Positions 3,089 through 12,511 of a stretch of 64,000 bases of DNA are shown one piece after another (positions within the stretch are counted from its first letter, which is position 1; each line of letters begins with the position of its first letter). The stretch lies in contig CAMBNV010000005.1 of the NCBI GenBank assembly GCA_945869195.1, forward strand, positions 124,001-188,000, written 5' to 3'. The notes below the pieces were generated by a model. It saw nothing but the letters and a program-made list of their open reading frames with translations. It did no database searches and was not told the DNA's origin. Made by a program: the position numbers and the translations under genes. The DNA is from Gemmatimonas phototrophica (lineage in GTDB: Bacteria > Gemmatimonadota > Gemmatimonadetes > Gemmatimonadales > Gemmatimonadaceae).

Positions 3089-3175
3089 GCCGGGGTGGCG
3101 AAATTGGCTAGACGCGACGGACTTAAAATCCGTTGGGAGGAGACTCCCATGTGGGTTCGATCCCCACCCCCGGCA
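3089..3175 (+). tRNA. tRNA-Leu(UAA)
   Basis: 87-base class II tRNA with a long variable arm. Acceptor GCCGGGG pairs with CCCCGGC, the anticodon loop CTTAAAA carries TAA, the variable arm is TTGGGAGGAGACTCCCAT, and the T arm is GTGGG/CCCAC with TTCGATC. From the anticodon stem to just past the 3' end it is repeated at 12393-12457, which makes this the probable integration target of the island that follows. Confidence 0.97.
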
Positions 3176-3180
3176 CTCTG
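3116..3180 (+). repeat. Left 65-bp direct repeat (attachment-site-like) inside tRNA-Leu
   Basis: Matches 12393-12457 with two mismatches (g/a at 3120, g/c at 3151) over 65 bp, then diverges at once on both sides. It starts in the anticodon stem and ends five bases past the tRNA, the usual extent of a tyrosine-integrase attachment core. Confidence 0.85.
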
Positions 3181-3200
3181 AACGGACAACAGGTTAGCGC

Positions 3201-3240
3201 ACAACAGGGGGACTCTTCATAGGTTCCCCTGTTGTCTCTT
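3201..3240 (+). terminator. Weak hairpin terminator after tRNA-Leu
   Basis: A 10-bp stem, ACAACAGGGG (3201-3210) with CCCCTGTTGT (3226-3235), followed by CTCTTTG. The T run is poor, so termination is only likely. It is the first sequence of the island. From here to 3613 no gene is recognisable; short open frames on both strands look like noise. Confidence 0.45.
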
Positions 3241-3391
3241 TGTCCATGGGTTTGGCCATTCAGCCAGCGCGGACGCCGGTGACGCGAACAGGGTCGCCAT
3301 CTGCCGTCTGAGCGCTGCGGCCGCCAGTGCCGCGTCATTCACACCCTGGATCCGCGGTGGCGGGAAGGTGGAACAAGGCCGTTCCGAGCGT

Positions 3392-3450
3392 GCGCACGGT
3401 GACCGGCGTCCATGCGCACGGTGACCGGCGTCCATGTGCGAGGTGACCGG
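3392..3450. repeat. Short tandem repeat, 22-bp unit
   Basis: The unit GCGCACGGTGACCGGCGTCC plus AT occurs twice in perfect tandem (3392-3413, 3414-3435), and a third degenerate partial copy follows from 3436. It lies in the gene-free first 430 bp of the island. Confidence 0.8.
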
Positions 3451-3613
3451 GCGTGGGTGACTTCGTCAAGCCTGACGCAGGCCCGCAGCGCCGAGTTCGG
3501 CCCTGCACTTGGGCATTCGGCCGAGCTCGTCCGGAATCTCTTGCACCAACAGCATGGGACCGCCGAGGCGGTGACCACCGCGGCGACGCTGCTGACAACC
3601 GAATCGCTCCTGA

Positions 3614-3979
3614 TTACTTACCGGGATCCGCCTGGCATGTGCGAAGGAGGCCAAACTTGTTCTTGAGGATGCGCAACCCACCCGGGGCAATGCCGCGATA
3701 CTGAATGGTGAACTTGCGTCGCTCGCCCGCCTTCGGCGCCGCGTTGCGCGAAATGCGCAGGCGATCGGCGTCGTGCGTGAATCGCACTCGTGCGCCTGCC
3801 GAAATGAGGCTCGTGACGCGCATCCCCTTGCGATCGTTCTCCGTCGCAGGGTCGAGGGCCTCCACACCCGACTCCCGCGGATACCTGTCCACCGGTGAGT
3901 CTCAGGCCGCGGCGCTGGCAGACACGAAGCAGACGACTGCAACGCTCAGGAACTTCGACCGGCTGTGCCGTGCGATCAT
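3614..3979 (-). pseudogene. Broken N-terminal fragment of an exported M1-like aminopeptidase
   Basis: From the ATG at 3979 the frame reads a signal peptide (M-I-A-R then a hydrophobic core ending ASAAA), hits TGA at 3902-3904, and then stays open in the same frame to 3614. The second part contains RFTHDADRLRI and FTIQYRGIAPGGLRI, which resemble the N-terminal beta domain of M1-family aminopeptidases (the V-Y-H-G-V-P..G-L-x-I segment). It then ends after an unrelated tail and lacks the HExxH catalytic domain. A ribosome binding site (GGAAGCGAG) precedes the ATG. Read as a gene killed by a nonsense change and a 3' deletion. The M1 assignment is from motif memory and is moderate. Confidence 0.6.
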
Positions 3980-4026
3980 CTGTGTTCTCGCTTCCTAAGT
4001 AGTGCGGTGGCGGTGGAGCTGACCTG

Positions 4027-4518
4027 TCAGCGCTCCCGGATTCGTGCGCTGCACTTGATTTCCACACGGGCCGCGGGCCGTGGGAGTTCGGTCACCGCGA
4101 GCGTGGCACGCGCCGGTGGATCGACGCGAAAGAACTCGATGTACACGGCATTCATCGCGGCGTAGTCGGCCATGTCCTTGAGGAAGACCGTGCACTCGTC
4201 CACATCGGCCATGGTCGCGCCGGCGGCCTGCAACGACGTCTTGATGTTCTCGAGCGTCTGGCGCGTCTGAGGAGTGACACCACCATCTACGATATCCTGC
4301 GTTCCGGGTTTGATGCCGGTCATTCCAGAGACGAACACCTGGTCGCCGGAATGGATGGCCACCGAATAGGCCGCGACTAGCGGTGCGATTCCCGACGGGT
4401 TGATGACTTGCCGGCCAGAGGCCAGCGCGACCGCCAGTGCCGGACCGGGTGCGTCTGTGCAAGCAGCGATCGCGAGCGCGGCCCCCGATGCGATGAGTCC
4501 CCGCGTGGCGGCGGTCAC
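4027..4518 (-). CDS. RidA/YjgF-family protein with a lipoprotein signal
   Basis: 163 residues from the GTG at 4518, which overlaps the stop of the upstream hydrolase gene (GTGA). Residues 1-20 form a lipoprotein signal ending in IAAC (Cys20); the RidA domain covers about 40-163. RidA enzymes hydrolyse reactive enamine/imine intermediates, and their key arginine is present as Arg137 in PARATLAV; ELPRPAARVEI matches the family C-terminus. Classical RidA is cytoplasmic, so an exported, lipid-anchored form is unusual. Coupling to the MBL-fold hydrolase suggests a shared extracytoplasmic role, substrate unknown. Confidence 0.82.
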   Translation of the reverse strand: MTAATRGLIASGAALAIAACTDAPGPALAVALASGRQVINPSGIAPLVAAYSVAIHSGDQVFVSGMTGIKPGTQDIVDGGVTPQTRQTLENIKTSLQAAGATMADVDECTVFLKDMADYAAMNAVYIEFFRVDPPARATLAVTELPRPAARVEIKCSARIRER

Positions 4519-5480
4519 TTGCGCGCTCCCACCACGATCGGTTCGAACCATTTCGGAAAGAGGTAGCGGCTCGACGGCGCCGCCGTGGCCACTTCCTGCT
4601 GGAATCGCTTCCGGTCGGCGAGCGCGGCGGCCGAGGGTTTCGGATCGCCGTAGGCGTCGGCGTGGCTGGGGATCACGAGCGCCGGCTTGCCGAGCGCGCG
4701 CATGAGGCGGCCGGTGAAATCGTGCACCTCGAGCCGCTGGCTGTTGGCGCCGACGAGGGCAATGTCGGGCCGGAGCCCTTCCATCTCGCGCTCGATGTAG
4801 TTCATCGAGCCCATGATCAGGATCTCGTGTCCCGCGATGCGCAGCAGGTAGGCGAGGTTGCCGCCTTCGACATAATCCTTGCGGCGGAGCGGTGCCTTGA
4901 GGCCGCGCGGCGCGGTGCCGACGATGCCGCGCGTGTTGTTGTAGTAGTGCTTCTTGTCCAGCGCGCTGTGAATGTTGGGAATCACACGCAGGGAGAAATC
5001 GCCGAACTCGTAATCCTCGCCGCCAATCACCGTGATGAGGGAACTGTCGGTGACGCCGTAGGCGCGAGCGAGGTTGGCCGCCGTCTCGTGGCCGATAATC
5101 GTCGCGCCGGTCTTGCGGGAGATGTAGCCCGCGTCGAGTGCGTGATCCGAGTGTCCGTGCGTGATCACGATGTAGTCGGCCCGCGTCACGTGCTGGCTGA
5201 TCAGCGCGGTGTCGGCCGGGTAGAGCGCCTCGGGGGCCGGCCCGTCGGCCTGCGTTGCGGAGTTCGTCCACCGCGCGAACTGGGTGAGGAATGGGTCGAC
5301 CAGGATGATCTTCTTCCCGTCGGTGATCTCCCAGCCGGCGTTGCCCAGGTAGGTGAGGCGAACCTCGCCAGTGTTGAGCGCGGCGCCCGCGGGGGCCGAT
5401 TTCGCCGGTTGGCCATGGGCCGCCATCGAGACGATTGCTATGAGCAGGCCTCCGATGGCGCTCGTCAGTCGTCGATGCAT
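4515..5480 (-). CDS. Exported metallo-beta-lactamase-fold hydrolase (UlaG-like)
   Basis: 321 residues from the ATG at 5480, chosen because GGGAG lies five bases upstream; a TTG 12 bases earlier is weaker. Residues 1-23 look like a signal peptide ending AHG. The zinc motif HGHSDH is at 108-113, with DPFL near 62-65 typical of the metal-dependent hydrolase branch that includes UlaG. The C-terminal PSHADAYG is probably part of the metal site. Substrate unknown. Overlaps the RidA-like lipoprotein gene by four bases, so both are made together. Confidence 0.85.
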   Translation of the reverse strand: MHRRLTSAIGGLLIAIVSMAAHGQPAKSAPAGAALNTGEVRLTYLGNAGWEITDGKKIILVDPFLTQFARWTNSATQADGPAPEALYPADTALISQHVTRADYIVITHGHSDHALDAGYISRKTGATIIGHETAANLARAYGVTDSSLITVIGGEDYEFGDFSLRVIPNIHSALDKKHYYNNTRGIVGTAPRGLKAPLRRKDYVEGGNLAYLLRIAGHEILIMGSMNYIEREMEGLRPDIALVGANSQRLEVHDFTGRLMRALGKPALVIPSHADAYGDPKPSAAALADRKRFQQEVATAAPSSRYLFPKWFEPIVVGARK

Positions 5481-5590
5481 GCCGTCTCCCAAAAGGAATT
5501 TTGTCTGCCAGAATATACTGCGCGACAGCCAGCCATGGTCGCCGGATTATCGCGTAGCCGCCGATTCACCTTGCGCCTAGCTTTGGCATT

Positions 5591-6748
5591 ATGAAAACGA
5601 TTCTCTTCGGCTCCGCGGCCACGCGCTTCGCGCTCGCTCTCGCGGGCGGCGCCACGCTTGCCCTCCAGCAGGGGGCGCCGCGCGGATTCGATCGTGTGCT
5701 GCTCCTCGAATCCACGAGTGAGACCTCGGCGAGCGCGAGCCTCGGCGACGTGGACGGCAACGGCACCCTCGACGTGGTCCTGGCCAAGGGCCGGCACTGG
5801 CCGCTCAAGAACGTGATCCTGCGCAACGATGGCAAGGGGCACTTCACGACCGAGAAGCTCGCGGACGCGCCCGATCGGACGTATTCCGCCGCGATCGCCG
5901 ATTTCGATGGCGACGGTGACCTCGACATCGTCGTGAGCAACGACAGCCCCGACAGGAAGCTCATCTACCTGAACGATGGCACGGGACATTTTCTCGTCAG
6001 CAGCACGTTCGGCGATCCCGACTGGAATACGCGGTATGTGACCGTGGCCGACCTGAACGGCGACAAGCGCCCCGATCTGATCGTCGCCAACCGGAGTTCG
6101 AATCCGGCCGCGCCTCGACCGAGTTTTGTCTGTCTCAACGACGGCAAAGGGGTGTTTCCGTCGTGCGCGCCGCTCGCGACGCAGTCGGCCACGATCATCG
6201 TCGCGGCAGATCTGGACGGGGACGGCACGATTGACCTCTTCGTCCCGCACCGCGACGGCAGACAAAACCTGATCTTCTGGAACGACGGTAGCGGCAAGTT
6301 CACTGCGGCGCCGGCCTCTGTTGGGCCGGCGGTGTCGCAGGTCCGAGCGGCCGCGGCAGGCGACATTAATGGCGATGGCATCATCGACCTCGTGGTGGGC
6401 GATGAGAAGAACGGGATGTTCATTTACCTCGGCGCCGGCAAGCGCACGTTCGAGGCGCCCGTCGCGCTCGGTAGCGGATCGGGCGCGCCATTTGCGGTCG
6501 GGCTGGCCGACATGAACCGCGACGGCAAGCCCGATATCATCGTCGGTCGTCAGGAAGCGGTAGGGTCAGTGTTCTTCAACCTCGGTACCGGGCGTATGCC
6601 GAAGTTCTCGGACAGGCCGTGGGGCGATGGCAAGGGCTCGGTCTACGGCGTCGCGATCGGCGACCTGGACGGCGATGGCTGGCCCGACATTGCCGCCGCC
6701 CGCTCGGAAGCGCCGAACGGGGTCTGGTTCAACGGGCCCCTGCGATGA
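5591..6748 (+). CDS. Secreted FG-GAP/VCBS-repeat protein (seven-bladed propeller)
   Basis: 385 residues with an N-terminal signal peptide (1 to about 25). Seven Asp-rich calcium-binding repeats of the form DxDGDGxxD can be read at about residues 52, 104, 153, 207, 258, 307 and 358, spaced as in an integrin-type beta-propeller. No catalytic domain is seen; binding or adhesion outside the cell is the likely role. The stop codon overlaps a new ATG (ATGA, 6745-6748), the start of a gene cut off by an IS91-type remnant. Confidence 0.88.
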   Translation: MKTILFGSAATRFALALAGGATLALQQGAPRGFDRVLLLESTSETSASASLGDVDGNGTLDVVLAKGRHWPLKNVILRNDGKGHFTTEKLADAPDRTYSAAIADFDGDGDLDIVVSNDSPDRKLIYLNDGTGHFLVSSTFGDPDWNTRYVTVADLNGDKRPDLIVANRSSNPAAPRPSFVCLNDGKGVFPSCAPLATQSATIIVAADLDGDGTIDLFVPHRDGRQNLIFWNDGSGKFTAAPASVGPAVSQVRAAAAGDINGDGIIDLVVGDEKNGMFIYLGAGKRTFEAPVALGSGSGAPFAVGLADMNRDGKPDIIVGRQEAVGSVFFNLGTGRMPKFSDRPWGDGKGSVYGVAIGDLDGDGWPDIAAARSEAPNGVWFNGPLR

Positions 6749-6802
6749 GTTCGCGCTTCCGGCCGCTCGCCATCGCGCTGCTCCTCTTCCTGTCGGATAG
6801 GA
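6745..6802 (+). pseudogene. Truncated secreted-protein gene, cut by the IS91-type remnant
   Basis: The ATG at 6745 overlaps the preceding stop (ATGA) and encodes MSSRFRPLAIALLLFLSD, a good start of a signal peptide. After about 19 codons the frame enters the repeat that begins at 6800 and is shared with 10168-10375, so the rest of the gene has been replaced. The lost partner was probably co-translated with the propeller protein. Confidence 0.6.
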
Positions 6803-7016
6803 GTTTATCGGGATCGGGAGTATGGCGCGCCGCGGCACGCGGCGCCACCAGCCCGCGCGCCGCCCAGGTGGGGTCTGTCACCCCTCTGTCCCCCCTCTGT
6901 CGCCTCTCTGTCGGCCGTCTCTCCGCGTCGCGGGTCATCCGGTCGGCTCCGCGGCGGGTCGTCGCCCCCTGACGCCCGACCGATGTGAGATCGCCGCGCC
7001 CGCCAACGGGCCCCGA
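6800..7016. repeat. IS91-type 3'-end repeat, copy A
   Basis: About 217 bp nearly identical to 10168-10375, from GGAGTTT through ATCGGGATCGGGAGTATGGC to GGGCCCCGA. It contains CCCCTCTGTC short repeats that vary in number. It covers the last part and 3' flank of the transposase remnant annotated on the minus strand. Confidence 0.85.
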
Positions 7017-7196
7017 CCAGTGAGCCGGCGGGCGCCGCATTCCGCGGCGTCGGTTGGCGTACCATCCGTAGTACCGCCTGGTCACGTGGCCTTGGTCGGG
7101 GATGTGGACCAGGACCCGCGCCAGGAACTCCAGGGGGTTGACGGTCTCAGGTCCCGCCGTCGGACCCTCGGACTTGTCAGAGCGATAGCTCACTGC
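6806..7196 (-). pseudogene. IS91-family (Y2) transposase, C-terminal remnant
   Basis: Reading leftward from 7196 the frame gives YRSDKSEGPTAG, then NPLEFLARVLVHIPDQGHV and RRYYGWYANRRRGMRR, a conserved block near the C-terminus of IS91/IS801-type rolling-circle transposases. The catalytic Tyr-containing part and the 5' end are missing. The remnant runs into the repeat that recurs at 10168. It faces the propeller gene and has truncated the short gene starting at 6745. Confidence 0.7.
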
Positions 7197-7237
7197 CTTT
7201 TTCTCGATATACTCAAGACAACAAACACTCATCGCTA

Positions 7238-8149
7238 ATGAAAATATTCCGCAAAATTCTTTTGGGCGCTGTCTTGACGGTGCTCGCCCTTGTGACTTTT
7301 ACGACCGCGTCAATTTATATCGACTGCTGGATTGGAACACGCCGCCTCGACGGCATCACAAATGTGGCCGCAGATAACGGCAGCGGCGGTGCCGTGCGCG
7401 CGTATGTGGCACGCCCACCCGGCGCGGGGCCCCATCCAACCGTGATTATGATTCACGAGTTCTGGGGGCTAAACGTCGAAATGCGCGACAAGGCCGACCA
7501 CTTGGCACGCGCGGGATACGTGGTGATTGCGCCTGACATGTTTCGCGGCAGCAGTACGAGCTGGCTGCCGCGGGCAATCTACCAGACCATCACCACGAAA
7601 CAGGCGCAGCGCAACACGGACCTCGATGCTGTCTACGCTTGGCTGGCACAGCAGCCCGAAGTTGACGCCACGCGCGTGGCGATAATCGGCTTTTGTTTTG
7701 GCGGTGCCACTTCACTGCGCTACAGCCTTTGGAATCCCAAGCTAGCGGCCACCGCCGTTTTCTACGGCTCGCCCCTCACCGATAGCGCAGAACTGAAATC
7801 GCTCCCCGGCCCGCTGCTCGGCGTTTTCGGTGGCGCAGATTCATCAATTCCACTGAGCACGGTCAGCGATTTTGAATCCGCGCTGAACGCAGCCGGCGTC
7901 TCCAACACCATCACGATCTACCCGGACCAGCCACACGCATTTATCACGGATGTGGCGGCGATTGAGGCCGGCGGCGCTCCGGGCGCAGCCTGGGCGCAAC
8001 TGCTCAATTTTTTAGATGGCACATTGGGCAAGGGAGCCGAAGCCCGGCCGCTGCATGCCCCGCGGGTGGTGGCGGAAGCCAGCTTGGGATACTATTTGCG
8101 CCTCGCTTTTGCTCACACGCTTGCCAGCAATCACACCAACGATCCGTAA
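7238..8149 (+). CDS. Dienelactone hydrolase family protein, membrane-anchored or exported
   Basis: 303 residues, alpha/beta hydrolase. Residues 8-28 form one hydrophobic helix (signal or anchor). Active-site residues can be placed at Cys153 in GFCFGG, Asp201 in GGADSSIP, His233 in QPHAF, and Glu74 in HEFWG, the DLH set. Members hydrolyse lactones or esters. The gene is clearly less GC-rich than its neighbours, starts just after the transposase remnant, and lacks a good ribosome binding site, all of which suggest transfer. Confidence 0.88.
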   Translation: MKIFRKILLGAVLTVLALVTFTTASIYIDCWIGTRRLDGITNVAADNGSGGAVRAYVARPPGAGPHPTVIMIHEFWGLNVEMRDKADHLARAGYVVIAPDMFRGSSTSWLPRAIYQTITTKQAQRNTDLDAVYAWLAQQPEVDATRVAIIGFCFGGATSLRYSLWNPKLAATAVFYGSPLTDSAELKSLPGPLLGVFGGADSSIPLSTVSDFESALNAAGVSNTITIYPDQPHAFITDVAAIEAGGAPGAAWAQLLNFLDGTLGKGAEARPLHAPRVVAEASLGYYLRLAFAHTLASNHTNDP

Positions 8150-8281
8150 TCAGCTGCTATCGTTTTGTAGATTAGACCTCAACGCAGTTCTCACGAAAAC
8201 TGCCCCTCTGCGATATTTCAATCTGCAGACAAGACTTTATCATGGCCAAGAAACAAACAATGGCGACGCCATGTGTTCCGC

Positions 8282-10066
8282 CTACGGGATTCGCAAACGC
8301 AACAGGCATCTACCCTGGAGATTGAGAATTTCCGGCCGCTGGCAGCCGCCGGTATACGCGACCAGGAAGCCGTCCGAAGTCGGCTTGATCTGGGCAGCGT
8401 AAGGCTGAAAGTTGCTGTACGGATTGTTCCACAGCTCAAGGACTTCAGGTGATGCCCCATTGGCGGTATAACGCAGGATTGCCCAATCAGTCCCATCGGC
8501 GTACGACGCCGTTTGGTGCATAATTAGTGCATTGTTGTGCAGCACGACATCAAGTGGGAACTCGTACCGTACGTTCGTTCTTGCCGACTGTGGAACAGCT
8601 ACATCTGAGTAGCTCTCAGCGAGAATGCCATTTTGGAAACCTTGTGAAATAAATGTGTTCCCAAATGATCCGAACACCATCAACAACGAGCGGCTAGCCT
8701 CTTCAGCATCAGCCGAGCGCGGTATGGCCCAGAGATTCCAGATCGCGCCCGTCCCCCTCGTCATTTCGACGAGGGAACTGGGGATCATGAGGTCATTGCG
8801 AGAGAAGCCACCGCGACCATCGCCGAGAAACATCACCGGCAATCGATCTCTCACATTCATTGCGTCCGTGGACAGAACGTCGACGTGGCCATCGCCGTTA
8901 AAGTCGGCGGCAGCGGCATGATGCCCATACAATCGTTCGGGTATCGCTTGCCTGCGGTACGTCCCATTTGGGGTGCTGAGCAGCACGACCTGTTCGCTCG
9001 TCGCAACGTCACGCTGCTGCTCAACGGGAAATATGTTGAAGTCGGCGACATCAAGGCCGCTGCAGGCCATCCAAATGTCTGGCTTCTTATCACCGTTGAA
9101 ATCAGCGACCAGCGAATATGACACCGAAACGCAAGTCCAGCGATCTTCCGGAGAGGCGAACAGTTCCGCAGAACGGTCGATCCACTGATTTTGAGCGTTG
9201 ATTGAAAGGAAGTAGCCTATTCCTGGTGAGTCGGAGAAATCGCGGGGCAACTCTGGGAATCGATTGGTAGATCGGGTTGAGGAAACGAACGCAGACACCG
9301 ATCCTTTGCCGAGAAAATCGGCGAATGCGACACTGCGCTCATTGGAATTCTGATCCGCGGCGACGCGCGGAATGTCGAGCCCGCGTACCGTCGGCACCTG
9401 CGTTCTGTCAAATGCGAGGCGGTTCTTGTTCTCGTAGCTGGTCGAGTACACGGGGAACGGGACGATGAGGGGGATAGAATCCCCCCGTGTCCCCCCGGGA
9501 CCGCTACACTGCAGGGTGAATCGTTTGACGCCACCTTCTGCCGCTACATAGCGCCGCGTCCCTGACGCCGGAAGGCTACCCGTCCACGCTCCGGAAGCTG
9601 TGCACGCTCCGGCATAGGTTGCGGTCCACGAGATGTTGGCGGTGTCTCCAACAAACAGCTTCTGGACGCTTATCGAGAACACGATTTGAACCGAGGCGAC
9701 AATAGTGATTGCAGCCGCAGCGGACTTGCCTTCGCTCGTTGCGCTGATCGTGACCGTTCCTGGCTGCAACGCAGTCACAAGGCCCGTCGATGAAACGGTC
9801 GCGGCGCTGACATCCGATGACGACCACGTCACCGCCCGATCGGTCAGTGTTGTACCGTTGGCGCTCTTGACCACCACGGTCAGCTGCTGCGTCCGCCCGA
9901 CTTGCATCGCGGTGTCTTGAACCGCGAATGACACACTCCCAACGGGAATGAGCGCTGTTGGATTCGTATCCGCGCATCCCGTGAGCGCCAGCATCACTGC
10001 GAGCAGCCGAGCGACTGAACGCGCCACAACCGTTCTGGCATGATTTATAGGTATAAAGCGAGACAT
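8282..10066 (-). CDS. Lipoprotein with Ig-like (BIG2-type) domain and FG-GAP repeats
   Basis: 594 residues. Lipobox LTGC near residue 31 marks an outer-envelope lipoprotein. About residues 42-125 look like a bacterial Ig-like domain (VTWSSSDVSAATVSSTGLVTA). A middle section of about 130-210 is of unknown fold. The C-terminal half carries FG-GAP-like repeats, for example ADFNGDKKPDIW and ADFNGDGHVDVL. Surface binding is likely; no enzyme motif is seen. Converges on the dienelactone hydrolase gene and lies between the two IS91-type remnants. Confidence 0.82.
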   Translation of the reverse strand: MSRFIPINHARTVVARSVARLLAVMLALTGCADTNPTALIPVGSVSFAVQDTAMQVGRTQQLTVVVKSANGTTLTDRAVTWSSSDVSAATVSSTGLVTALQPGTVTISATSEGKSAAAAITIVASVQIVFSISVQKLFVGDTANISWTATYAGACTASGAWTGSLPASGTRRYVAAEGGVKRFTLQCSGPGGTRGDSIPLIVPFPVYSTSYENKNRLAFDRTQVPTVRGLDIPRVAADQNSNERSVAFADFLGKGSVSAFVSSTRSTNRFPELPRDFSDSPGIGYFLSINAQNQWIDRSAELFASPEDRWTCVSVSYSLVADFNGDKKPDIWMACSGLDVADFNIFPVEQQRDVATSEQVVLLSTPNGTYRRQAIPERLYGHHAAAADFNGDGHVDVLSTDAMNVRDRLPVMFLGDGRGGFSRNDLMIPSSLVEMTRGTGAIWNLWAIPRSADAEEASRSLLMVFGSFGNTFISQGFQNGILAESYSDVAVPQSARTNVRYEFPLDVVLHNNALIMHQTASYADGTDWAILRYTANGASPEVLELWNNPYSNFQPYAAQIKPTSDGFLVAYTGGCQRPEILNLQGRCLLRLRIP

Positions 10067-10167
10067 TTGCTGGAAGATCAGGTGGTGAGGGTCCCGCCCT
10101 CAGCGATCCAGTGTTAGGCTGACAACTGGGCGGGGGTTGAGGTGAAGGTCAGGGCGTACTCGGGACA

Positions 10168-10375
10168 GGAGTTTCAATCGGGATCGGGAGTATGGCGCGC
10201 CGCTTCACGGGGCGCCACCAGCCCGCGCGCCGCCCAGGTGGGGTCTGTCGCCCCTCTGTCGCCCCTCTGTCGCCCGTCTCTCCGCGTCGCGGGTCATCCG
10301 GTCGGCTCCGCACCGGGTCATCGCCCCGTGACGCCCGACCGATGTGAGATCGCCGCGCCCGCCAACGGGCCCCGA
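10168..10375. repeat. IS91-type 3'-end repeat, copy B
   Basis: About 208 bp matching 6800-7016 in the same orientation, with two small indels and fewer substitutions than expected by chance drift. It holds only the last part of the transposase gene region and its 3' flank; the conserved transposase block present next to copy A is absent here. The rest of 10067-10688 holds one REP-like repeat and the upstream region of the photolyase gene. Confidence 0.85.
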
Positions 10376-10508
10376 GGGAGTCCTACCCGGGCGACTGGCG
10401 CCCGCTCGGACTCATAAGCACTGAGGCAGAGTATGAGGGTGAAGGCAAGTCGTGACTCGGCTGAGACTACCCAGGTAGGGACAGCACCACGTGCTGTCCT
10501 AGTTGTCC

Positions 10509-10568
10509 TGGGTCGGGCTGACCACCCTTGGTCAGCCGCGGTTGAGCGAGAGCGCTCAACCCTACCTT
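10509..10568. repeat. REP-like double-hairpin repeat, copy 1
   Basis: Two adjacent palindromes: GGCTGACCA-cccT-TGGTCAGCC (10516-10537) and GGTTGAGCG-agag-CGCTCAACC (10540-10561), then CTACCTT. A degenerate direct copy lies on the other side of the photolyase gene at 12234-12292. Confidence 0.8.
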
Positions 10569-10688
10569 TGAAAGCCCCCAGCACACCATCCGGTTTCCGG
10601 TCTCCCTTTGAGTGTACCATCTTTCTGGCCCTGGCCCTATTGAGTTCAGAGATTTGCACTCACCCTCAATCCCCTCTTACTCCCCGCC

Positions 10689-12143
10689 ATGCCTACCCCT
10701 GCCATCGTCTGGCTTCGCCTAGACCTTCGTCTCGCCGACAATCCGTCGCTTGCAGCAGCGGTGAACCATGGTGGCCCGGTCATCCCGGTGTTCATCCACG
10801 ACCCTGAGGCCGAAGGAGATTGGCAGCCTGGCGGCGCGTCGAACTGGTGGCTGCACTACGCCTTGGAAGATCTCGCGGAGCAGTTCGCCAAGGTCGGCTC
10901 CCCGCTCGTGATCCGAGCTGGCGACTCGCTCGCCGAACTCAAGCTGCTCGCCAAGGAGACCGGCGCGGAACTCGTTACCTGGAATCGTCGCCACGAGCCC
11001 TTGATCATCGAGCGCGACACCCAGGTGAAGACCTCGCTGCGCAACACCGGCCTCAAGGCCGAGTCGTTCAACGGTAACCTCCTCCACGAACCGCACCTCG
11101 TAAAAACCCTCGCCGGTAATCCCTTCCAGGTCTTCACGCCCTTTTGGAAGAACTGCCTCGCGAACCTCAAGTTCGGCATCCCCCTCAAGGCCCCGAAGAA
11201 GCTCACGCCGTTCGAAAAGCCGCTGAAGTCGGTCGCGATTGCGAAGCTCGGCCTACTCCCGAAAATCAAGTGGGACGGAGAGTTCCCTGTGAGCTGGGAT
11301 CCGACGCGTAAGGGCGCCGAGAAGCGCCTGAAGGATTTCGTCGCCGCACCGGTCAAGGATTATCCCACCAATCGCGATATCCCCAAGCTCGACGGCACCT
11401 CACGCCTTTCGCCTTACCTGCACTCCGGTCAGATCTCGCCGCTCGAGATCGTCGACGCCGTGCGCACCGCGGGACACCTCGGCGCCAAGGGCGGCGACAA
11501 ATACGTGGCCGAGGTCGGCTGGCGCGAATTCTCCCAGCACCTCATCCATCACTTCCCCGAGACCCCGGATCGTCCGCTGCGGAGGGAGTTCGAAAAGTTT
11601 CCGTGGGCTCCGGACAAGAAGCTGCTACGCGCCTGGCAGCGTGGCCGTACCGGCTACCCAATCGTCGACGCCGGCATGCGCCAGCTCTGGCAGACCGGCT
11701 GGCAGCACAACCGCGTGCGCATGATCGCCGCCTCCGTGCTCGTGAAGCATCTCCTCCAGCCCTGGAACGAAGGCGCCAAGTGGTATTGGGATACCCTCGT
11801 CGACGCCGACCTCGGCGCGAACACCATGGGCTGGCAGTGGGCCGGTGGGTGCGGCGCCGACGCCGCTCCGTATTTCCGCGTCTTTAATCCCGTCCTCCAA
11901 GGACTCAAGTTCGACCCCGATGGCGACTACGTGCGCCGCTGGGTACCCGAGCTCGCCAAGCTCCCCGCCGAGTGGATTCACAAGCCGTGGGAAGCCCCGA
12001 TGGATGTACTCGCCGAAGCCGGCATCAAACTCGGCAAGGACTACCCCGCCCCCCTCGTCGGACTGACTGAAGGAAGAGACCGGGCGTTGGCGGCGTTGAA
12101 GGGAATGCGACCAGAGTCGAGGACTGAGTCGAGGACAGCGTAG
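10689..12143 (+). CDS. phr: Deoxyribodipyrimidine photolyase, class I type
   Basis: 484 residues. Light-driven repair of UV-made pyrimidine dimers in DNA. N-terminal antenna domain starts IVWLRLDLRLADNPSL (residues 6-21). The FAD-binding C-terminal part shows RLSPYLHSGQISP, the block with WQHNRVRMIAASVLVKHLL, and WQWAGGCGADAAPYFRVFNP with the usual Asn/Asp/Trp residues. Class I CPD is the best call; a cryptochrome-like or (6-4) role cannot be excluded. The last residues (ESRTESRTA) come from a DNA microrepeat that continues past the stop. Flanked by two copies of a REP-like repeat, which fits import as a cassette. Confidence 0.92.
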   Translation: MPTPAIVWLRLDLRLADNPSLAAAVNHGGPVIPVFIHDPEAEGDWQPGGASNWWLHYALEDLAEQFAKVGSPLVIRAGDSLAELKLLAKETGAELVTWNRRHEPLIIERDTQVKTSLRNTGLKAESFNGNLLHEPHLVKTLAGNPFQVFTPFWKNCLANLKFGIPLKAPKKLTPFEKPLKSVAIAKLGLLPKIKWDGEFPVSWDPTRKGAEKRLKDFVAAPVKDYPTNRDIPKLDGTSRLSPYLHSGQISPLEIVDAVRTAGHLGAKGGDKYVAEVGWREFSQHLIHHFPETPDRPLRREFEKFPWAPDKKLLRAWQRGRTGYPIVDAGMRQLWQTGWQHNRVRMIAASVLVKHLLQPWNEGAKWYWDTLVDADLGANTMGWQWAGGCGADAAPYFRVFNPVLQGLKFDPDGDYVRRWVPELAKLPAEWIHKPWEAPMDVLAEAGIKLGKDYPAPLVGLTEGRDRALAALKGMRPESRTESRTA

Positions 12144-12162
12144 AGGACTGCATCGAGGACTG
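12114..12162 (+). repeat. Microsatellite-like repeat across the photolyase stop codon
   Basis: Four imperfect copies of a 12- to 15-base unit containing (G/A)TCGAGGAC span the last codons, the TAG at 12141-12143 and the first bases after it. Confidence 0.7.
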
Positions 12163-12233
12163 AATAGATGAATTGAGCTTCGGGTGGCAGGTGGCAGCCC
12201 CGGGTGGCGGGTGGCAGGAATGTCATGCTGCCT

Positions 12234-12292
12234 TGGGTAGGGCTGACCATCCTTGGTCAGCCGCGTTTGCGCGGGCCGCTCAACCCTACCTT
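12234..12292. repeat. REP-like double-hairpin repeat, copy 2
   Basis: Same orientation as 10509-10568. The first hairpin (12241-12262) is intact; the second has lost most pairing. The rest of the 12144-12511 gap holds GGTGGC-rich simple sequence and the tRNA-Leu 3' fragment at 12393-12457; no gene is seen. Confidence 0.75.
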
Positions 12293-12392
12293 ACGAAGGC
12301 TACTTCCCCCACGGGGAAGCGCTGGCCTTCTGATCGCGTTCCTGGGCCTTGCGCCTGATCTCGGCCCTGACCGCGTTGAGTCCCTCCGGCCA

Positions 12393-12457
12393 GACGAACT
12401 TAAAATCCGTTGGGAGGAGACTCCCATCTGGGTTCGATCCCCACCCCCGGCACTCTG
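12393..12457 (+). repeat. Right 65-bp direct repeat: tRNA-Leu 3' fragment
   Basis: Carries the anticodon loop, variable arm, T arm and 3' acceptor strand of tRNA-Leu plus ACTCTG, but no 5' half, so it is not a functional tRNA. Differs from 3116-3180 at two positions. Probable far-end attachment site of the island. Confidence 0.85.
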
Positions 12458-12511
12458 GATCCGATCGTTTCACCGATGCGACCTGCGCGTCCGAGCGGCG
12501 CCGCACACGCG

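Follow-up and report, generated by a model that had tools for sequence, protein, structure and literature searches.

A probable decayed tRNA-Leu island in Gemmatimonas phototrophica with an M28 metallopeptidase gene stub at an IS91-family remnant

Gene content of the probable tRNA-Leu island

The analyzed stretch of DNA, hereafter the window, comprises 64,000 nucleotides of Gemmatimonas phototrophica and corresponds to positions 124001–188000 of contig C5 in a 2.33-Mb draft genome that is 98% complete. A tRNA-Leu (taa) gene, found with ARAGORN and Rfam, is located at positions 3089–3176 (+) and represents an apparent integration site. Its 3' part, together with a few following bases, forms a 65-bp direct repeat with a left copy at 3116–3180 (+) and a right copy at 12393–12457 (+), which are identical at 63 of 65 positions. 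The right copy marks the border of a 9.3-kb segment (3089–12457) referred to here as an island; this label is a structural description and not a mobile-element claim. In the genomes G137 and G148, a few bases separate this tRNA-Leu gene from the counterpart of the window sequence starting near position 12510, and in G142 the distance is a few tens of bases. The nearest relative, G143 (80%–81% on both sides), has at this site only a short gene that resembles crcB by eye. Since three genomes of the same genus (G138, G144, and G149) carry about 2 to 3.5 kb here, the site may be a hotspot. No integrase family was recognized among the island open reading frames (ORFs) scanned with Pfam, a set that covered part of the small ORFs, and integration at the tRNA gene is therefore proposed solely from the repeat and from the comparison with relatives.

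The left part of the island contains a block (3649–6792, +) with about 96% DNA identity to contig C2 of genome G022. Nucleotide alignment gave 95%–96% identity to G022 (96.3% over 2,942 bases) versus 82%–88% to G032, and both of these genomes belong to another genus than the window genome. At its left end, the block carries a remnant of an M1 aminopeptidase gene that covers the N-terminal region (3649–3981, −); aligned with the intact G022 gene (L130, 6423–8171), this remnant is cut at 3649 and has a 105-bp deletion near 3851–3859, located between short repeats. Next come three intact genes for predicted exported proteins. The first one (4027–4518, −) encodes a 163-aa RidA-like (L-PSP) protein with a lipobox-like N-terminus, assigned by PF01042 (E-value 2.5e-30) and by similarity to RidA structures. 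The second (4515–5492, −) encodes a metallo-beta-lactamase (MBL)-fold hydrolase of the UPF0173/UlaG-like type (PF13483, E-value 2.8e-11) with a THGHSDH motif, the nearest solved structures being UPF0173 hydrolases. The product of the third gene (5591–6748, +) is a 385-aa FG-GAP beta-propeller protein (PF13517, E-value 1.8e-60); its AlphaFold model has a mean pLDDT of 88, and the PDB matches are FG-GAP and integrin-type propellers, with CRTAC1 as the best one (TMq 0.70).

To the right of the block, the GC content of the segment 7200–10162 is 57%–59% versus 66.6% for the window. This lower-GC passenger segment includes a gene for a dienelactone-hydrolase-like protein (7238–8149, +; PF01738; 59% GC), for which no other match at E 1e-60 was found in 394 genomes of the class, the own genome included. 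Between the two IS91-type ends described below, the low-GC part also encodes, at 8282–10066 (−), a protein of 594 aa that begins like a lipoprotein and contains FG-GAP repeats as well as a Big_2 domain. Another passenger is a DNA photolyase gene (10689–12143, +; PF03441 and PF00875) that, at E 1e-120, had a match besides the own genome in only one of 179 family genomes, with 50% identity. The class and family searches thus yielded no close match that would indicate the source of the dienelactone hydrolase and photolyase genes. A 45-bp direct repeat (10504–10548 and 12229–12273, 87%) is present in the intergenic regions flanking the photolyase gene.

The IS91-family remnant and the truncated gene

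A previous reading of this DNA, made from the sequence alone, proposed that an ATG overlapping the propeller stop codon opens the gene of a secreted protein and that this gene is interrupted by an IS91-type remnant. The overlap is indeed present, since the TGA of the propeller ORF shares bases with the ATG at 6745–6747 (ATGA). The frame from this ATG encodes MSSRFRPLAIALLLFL, followed by S and a tail translated from the element sequence, 75 aa in total. Entry of the frame into a repeat was also correctly predicted, but it takes place after 16 codons, where the nucleotide match to G022 stops (position 6792), and not after about 19. The repeat recurs downstream as well, although its second copy occupies 10163–10375, where the reading gave position 10168.

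The sequence following the break shares 89% identity with this second copy over a 224-column alignment (E-value 7e-83). Positions 6793–7016 (−) represent an oriIS-like end of an IS91-family element that lies on the minus strand with its 3' end at the left; the end motif GGATAGGA.TTTCAATCGGGG is common to IS91-type copies in the own and related genomes. The oriIS-like end adjoins the C-terminal part of a transposase (7017–7199, −), which is cut at 7199 and has an internal deletion towards the end; related copies align over approximately 7024–7199 and stop at or before 7199. The Y2_Tnp domain (PF04986) was identified in this remnant above the Pfam cut-off (E-value 4.7e-9), and the NCBIfam model NF033538 "IS91 family transposase" matched with an E-value of 9.1e-8; with just 59 positions left, this match falls below the cut-off set for the whole protein. 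The IS91-type assignment of the sequence-only reading therefore holds, and the observation itself, comprising the overlap, the repeat, and the IS91 domain, is far beyond chance. The copy at 10163–10375 (−) is a second IS91-type end in the same orientation, without a transposase.

PMC13023784, in which the 22-bp right end of ISCR1 is listed, locates oriIS downstream of the transposase. A copy with a full transposase frame at C5:2888–4246 shares the end motif and has its end at C5:4494, about 250 bp past the stop codon. The transposase tail and the end in G173 are about 350 bp further apart, indicating that the window copy is also internally deleted. No terIS end was found, and past 7199 the sequence shows no relationship to the element copies used for comparison; the IS91 element in the window is a remnant and not an intact member of the family. 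The target tetranucleotide expected for IS91 is GAAC or CAAG. Neither is located at the 6792/6793 junction; GAAC adjoins one IS91-type copy on C11, and no constant flank was observed among the copies listed. At the start of contig C5 (L008, 2888–14161), two IS91-type transposase regions in opposite orientation enclose two frames resembling DNA cytosine methyltransferases and a long frame that may encode a restriction-modification protein, all judged by eye.

The interrupted gene could be recognized from its intact homologs. In G022 and G032, whose propellers are 95% and 90% identical, a gene for a 517-aa exported M28 metallopeptidase begins at this same ATGA; residues 1–16 of the G022 protein, which has a whole M28 domain (PF04389, E-value 8.5e-34), are identical to those encoded at 6745–6792 (+) in the window. 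In a third lineage, JARIET010000207.1 (L078, propeller 78% identical over the part compared), the propeller gene is likewise followed by an M28 gene, with a TAATG overlap. Judging from its length and identity values, the G032 contig is the same as JAPLKU010000005.1 (L051). On the basis of these alignments, the gene lost at 6793 is identified as that of a predicted exported M28 metallopeptidase, from which the window retains a stub of 16 codons from the signal-peptide part. Both the proposed loss of a translationally coupled exported-protein gene and the suggested survival of intact pairs in relatives were thereby borne out, and because of the M28 genes in G022 and G032, propeller homologs with an ATGA-coupled gene do exist. 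The remaining 500 codons were absent from the window, where tblastn with the M28 protein found nothing at E 1e-3, and no near-identical remainder was found in the own genome, which is 98% complete. On contig C1, this genome encodes a full-length M28 homolog (75% identity, 516-aa intact frame with the M28 domain), and more distant homologs are also present; a propeller search of the own genome gave no match near the C1 homolog.

The hydrolase, RidA-like, and propeller genes across the family

The ratios of nonsynonymous to synonymous polymorphism (pN/pS) relative to G022, obtained by simple counting with few changes, were 0.27 for the propeller, 0.13 for the hydrolase, and 0.18 for the RidA-like gene. 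Given these low values, all three genes look as if they are still maintained by selection, although the share of the window branch in the propeller changes (13 synonymous and 11 nonsynonymous) is only moderately constrained. The overlap between the hydrolase and RidA genes reads GTGA in the window and ATGA in L051.

In a search of 179 family genomes, the propeller was found at E 1e-60 in 38 besides the own genome. Neighbors were counted within 5 kb of the propeller at E 1e-40 for the RidA-like protein and E 1e-90 for the hydrolase; owing to contig ends and draft quality, all counts for the 38 genomes are lower bounds. The RidA-like gene was present within this distance in 17 of the 38 genomes, upstream in some and downstream in others and without a fixed strand; it was located elsewhere in 12 and had no match in 9. 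The MBL-fold hydrolase was a neighbor of the propeller in 11 of 38. The RidA-like and hydrolase genes were no more than 5 kb apart in 19 of the 20 genomes containing both.

Gene fusions were analyzed in 21 of the 179 genomes, chosen for clustered genes, namely the 17 with RidA near the propeller and four with long RidA-MBL frames. Six of the 21 encode all three domains in a single open frame of about 800–880 aa, and Pfam confirmed the three domains in each case. These frames are located on the plus strand in L039 (1492–3942), L040 (1447–3879), and L218 (1576–4158), and on the minus strand in L044 (232–2628), L048 (1495–3963), and L219 (2210–4861). The order of domains is propeller-hydrolase-RidA in G077, G134, and G141 and hydrolase-RidA-propeller in G154, G024, and G123. 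In G112, the hydrolase, RidA, and a part of the propeller share one frame, and the remaining propeller is encoded in another. Two-domain frames combine the hydrolase with RidA in 6 of 21 genomes and RidA with the propeller in one (G045). The neighborhood, overlap, and fusion data therefore point to hydrolase and RidA as the recurring coupled pair and to the propeller as the third member, and this set is intact in the window.

The M28 gene behaves differently. At a threshold of E 1e-150, it was found directly after the propeller in 2 of the 38 genomes, elsewhere in nine further ones (eight on another contig; in G033 at a distance of 2.6 kb and on the other strand), and had no match in 27. A wider contig search yielded 79 propeller loci, of which 28 (L051–L078) were used, the others being at most 34% identical except L090 (46%, short match). 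M28 follows the propeller in two of these 28, L078 and L051, the latter being G032 again. An ATGA overlap at the propeller stop was observed in 2 of the 27 loci scanned, with two different genes, M28 in L051 and a DoxX-like frame in L059, so a stable ATGA partner of propeller homologs was rejected. The DoxX-like frame (by eye) of L059 (7164–7538), which belongs to G033, is a small membrane-protein frame.

These data bear on the suggestion of the sequence-only reading that propeller and lost protein were probably partners in a system now incomplete in the own genome, which, with M28 as the lost protein, would have been an extracellular protease made of two dedicated parts. Overlapping propeller-M28 pairs do occur in three lineages (G022, G032, and JARIET010000207), with M28 proteins 96% and 87% identical to the G022 copy, and the claim stands to the extent that a few relatives have a coupled pair. 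As a general partner, however, M28 is not supported, given the two adjoining cases among 38 family genomes and among 28 contig-search loci and the nine genomes with M28 elsewhere; moreover, near M28 relatives occur without a propeller match (G034, 87%). Nor is the view of an incomplete system supported, since a full-length M28 homolog is encoded on C1 and the recurrent neighbors of the propeller at 4027–5492 are intact. The idea of an incomplete two-part system is therefore weak, and a dedicated propeller-M28 protease is improbable.

About as likely to be right as wrong is the proposal that an MBL-fold hydrolase, a RidA-type deaminase, and the FG-GAP propeller make up a previously undescribed exported enzyme unit with three parts, which would couple extracytoplasmic ring-opening or deacylating hydrolysis to imine/enamine removal, and that the IS91 insertion removed only a lineage-specific peptidase rider. 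The three proteins probably work together as a single exported unit from which the peptidase is absent. In this model, a cyclic or acyl compound would be opened by the hydrolase and the reactive imine or enamine thus formed would be cleared by RidA, while the propeller would serve either as a tether for the enzymes or as the substrate-binding part. The combination of RidA and an exported hydrolase would fit an attack in two steps on a putative extracytoplasmic substrate. According to PMC4433059, RidA proteins pre-empt damage from reactive imine/enamine intermediates, and the fusions described combine Rid domains with each other, other families being mentioned generally; lactamase, periplasm, and signal peptide are terms absent from its main text. 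A literature search covering few subscription papers found no description of an exported hydrolase-RidA-propeller unit, although such silence is weak evidence of its novelty.

Origin of the locus and comparison with known systems

Two other regions aligned with G022 showed only 67%–71% identity versus about 96% for the block 3649–6792, which was therefore probably acquired horizontally. An assembly or binning chimera, in which a 3.1-kb block from a G022-like organism was wrongly joined, would also explain why the block but not the neighboring genes is 96% identical to another genus, and the draft assembly comprises 15 contigs. However, the block is about 4% diverged from G022, shows truncation at either side as well as an internal deletion, and lies inside a segment with the tRNA repeat at both borders. 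A random misjoin would not be expected to produce these features in combination, and we consider a chimera very unlikely. Hardly credible is the proposal that the 75-aa hybrid frame (6745–6972, +) is a functional small exported protein newly made by the insertion, for although the start, overlap, and signal peptide are kept, the tail comes from translating the element in an arbitrary frame, the DNA copy at 10163 has no stub, and the 117-aa ORF containing it had no Pfam match. The frame is probably not a gene, and the M28 stub would be expressed at most as this hybrid.

We regard it as very likely that the locus is a decayed tRNA-borne genomic island holding a G022-like block with the M28 gene cut by an IS91-family element. 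A fragment from another genus, comprising the M1 aminopeptidase part, RidA, the MBL-fold hydrolase, the propeller, and the start of M28, would have been fixed beside the tRNA-Leu gene. The IS91-family element, either in the donor or here, would have become attached through its oriIS end to codon 16 of the M28 gene; the end and the break are visible in the DNA, and the route is proposed. One-ended transposition, described for ISCR1 in PMC13023784, would place unrelated DNA on the distal side, the position occupied by the lower-GC passengers. Subsequently, the remaining 500 M28 codons and most of the element, both now absent, would have been lost and replaced by unrelated lower-GC DNA. The distal part of M28 and the other end of the element are missing, so the order of events given here is a proposed one.

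Gene loss at an IS91-type remnant is in itself an ordinary case of gene decay. The same literature search, with few subscription papers covered, found nothing on IS91 with a Gemmatimonadetes genomic island or on FG-GAP with M28 in a Gemmatimonad. A first guess from raw sequence was confirmed in that the cut gene was named and its intact copy located, and corrected in its functional reading. Of wider interest is the directly testable exported hydrolase-RidA-propeller unit to which the fusions point.

Like IS91/ISCR elements, which have rolling-circle Y2 transposases, the window remnant contains the Y2_Tnp domain, and its motif GGGATAGGAATTTCAATCGGGG looks similar by eye to the 22-bp right end of ISCR1 listed in PMC13023784 when the latter is reverse-complemented; unlike them, it is mostly devoid of the transposase and shows neither a second end nor a constant target tetranucleotide. 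With tRNA genomic islands, the locus shares flanking direct repeats derived from the tRNA 3' end, a mosaic foreign content, and an intact site in relatives, but it is only 9.3 kb long and has no recognized integrase. Intact homologs of the lost gene carry the whole domain of the M28 family (PF04389; nearest solved structure 3iib), whereas the window keeps only 16 codons without the catalytic domain. Rid (RidA/YjgF) proteins are otherwise known mainly as soluble intracellular or organellar enzymes that deal with metabolite damage. The RidA-like protein of the window has the conserved domain of this family, and its PPAR...LP segment aligns with RidA structures; in contrast to typical members, it is predicted to be exported, has a lipobox-like N-terminus, and belongs to a set in which RidA is coupled or fused to an MBL-fold hydrolase and a propeller.
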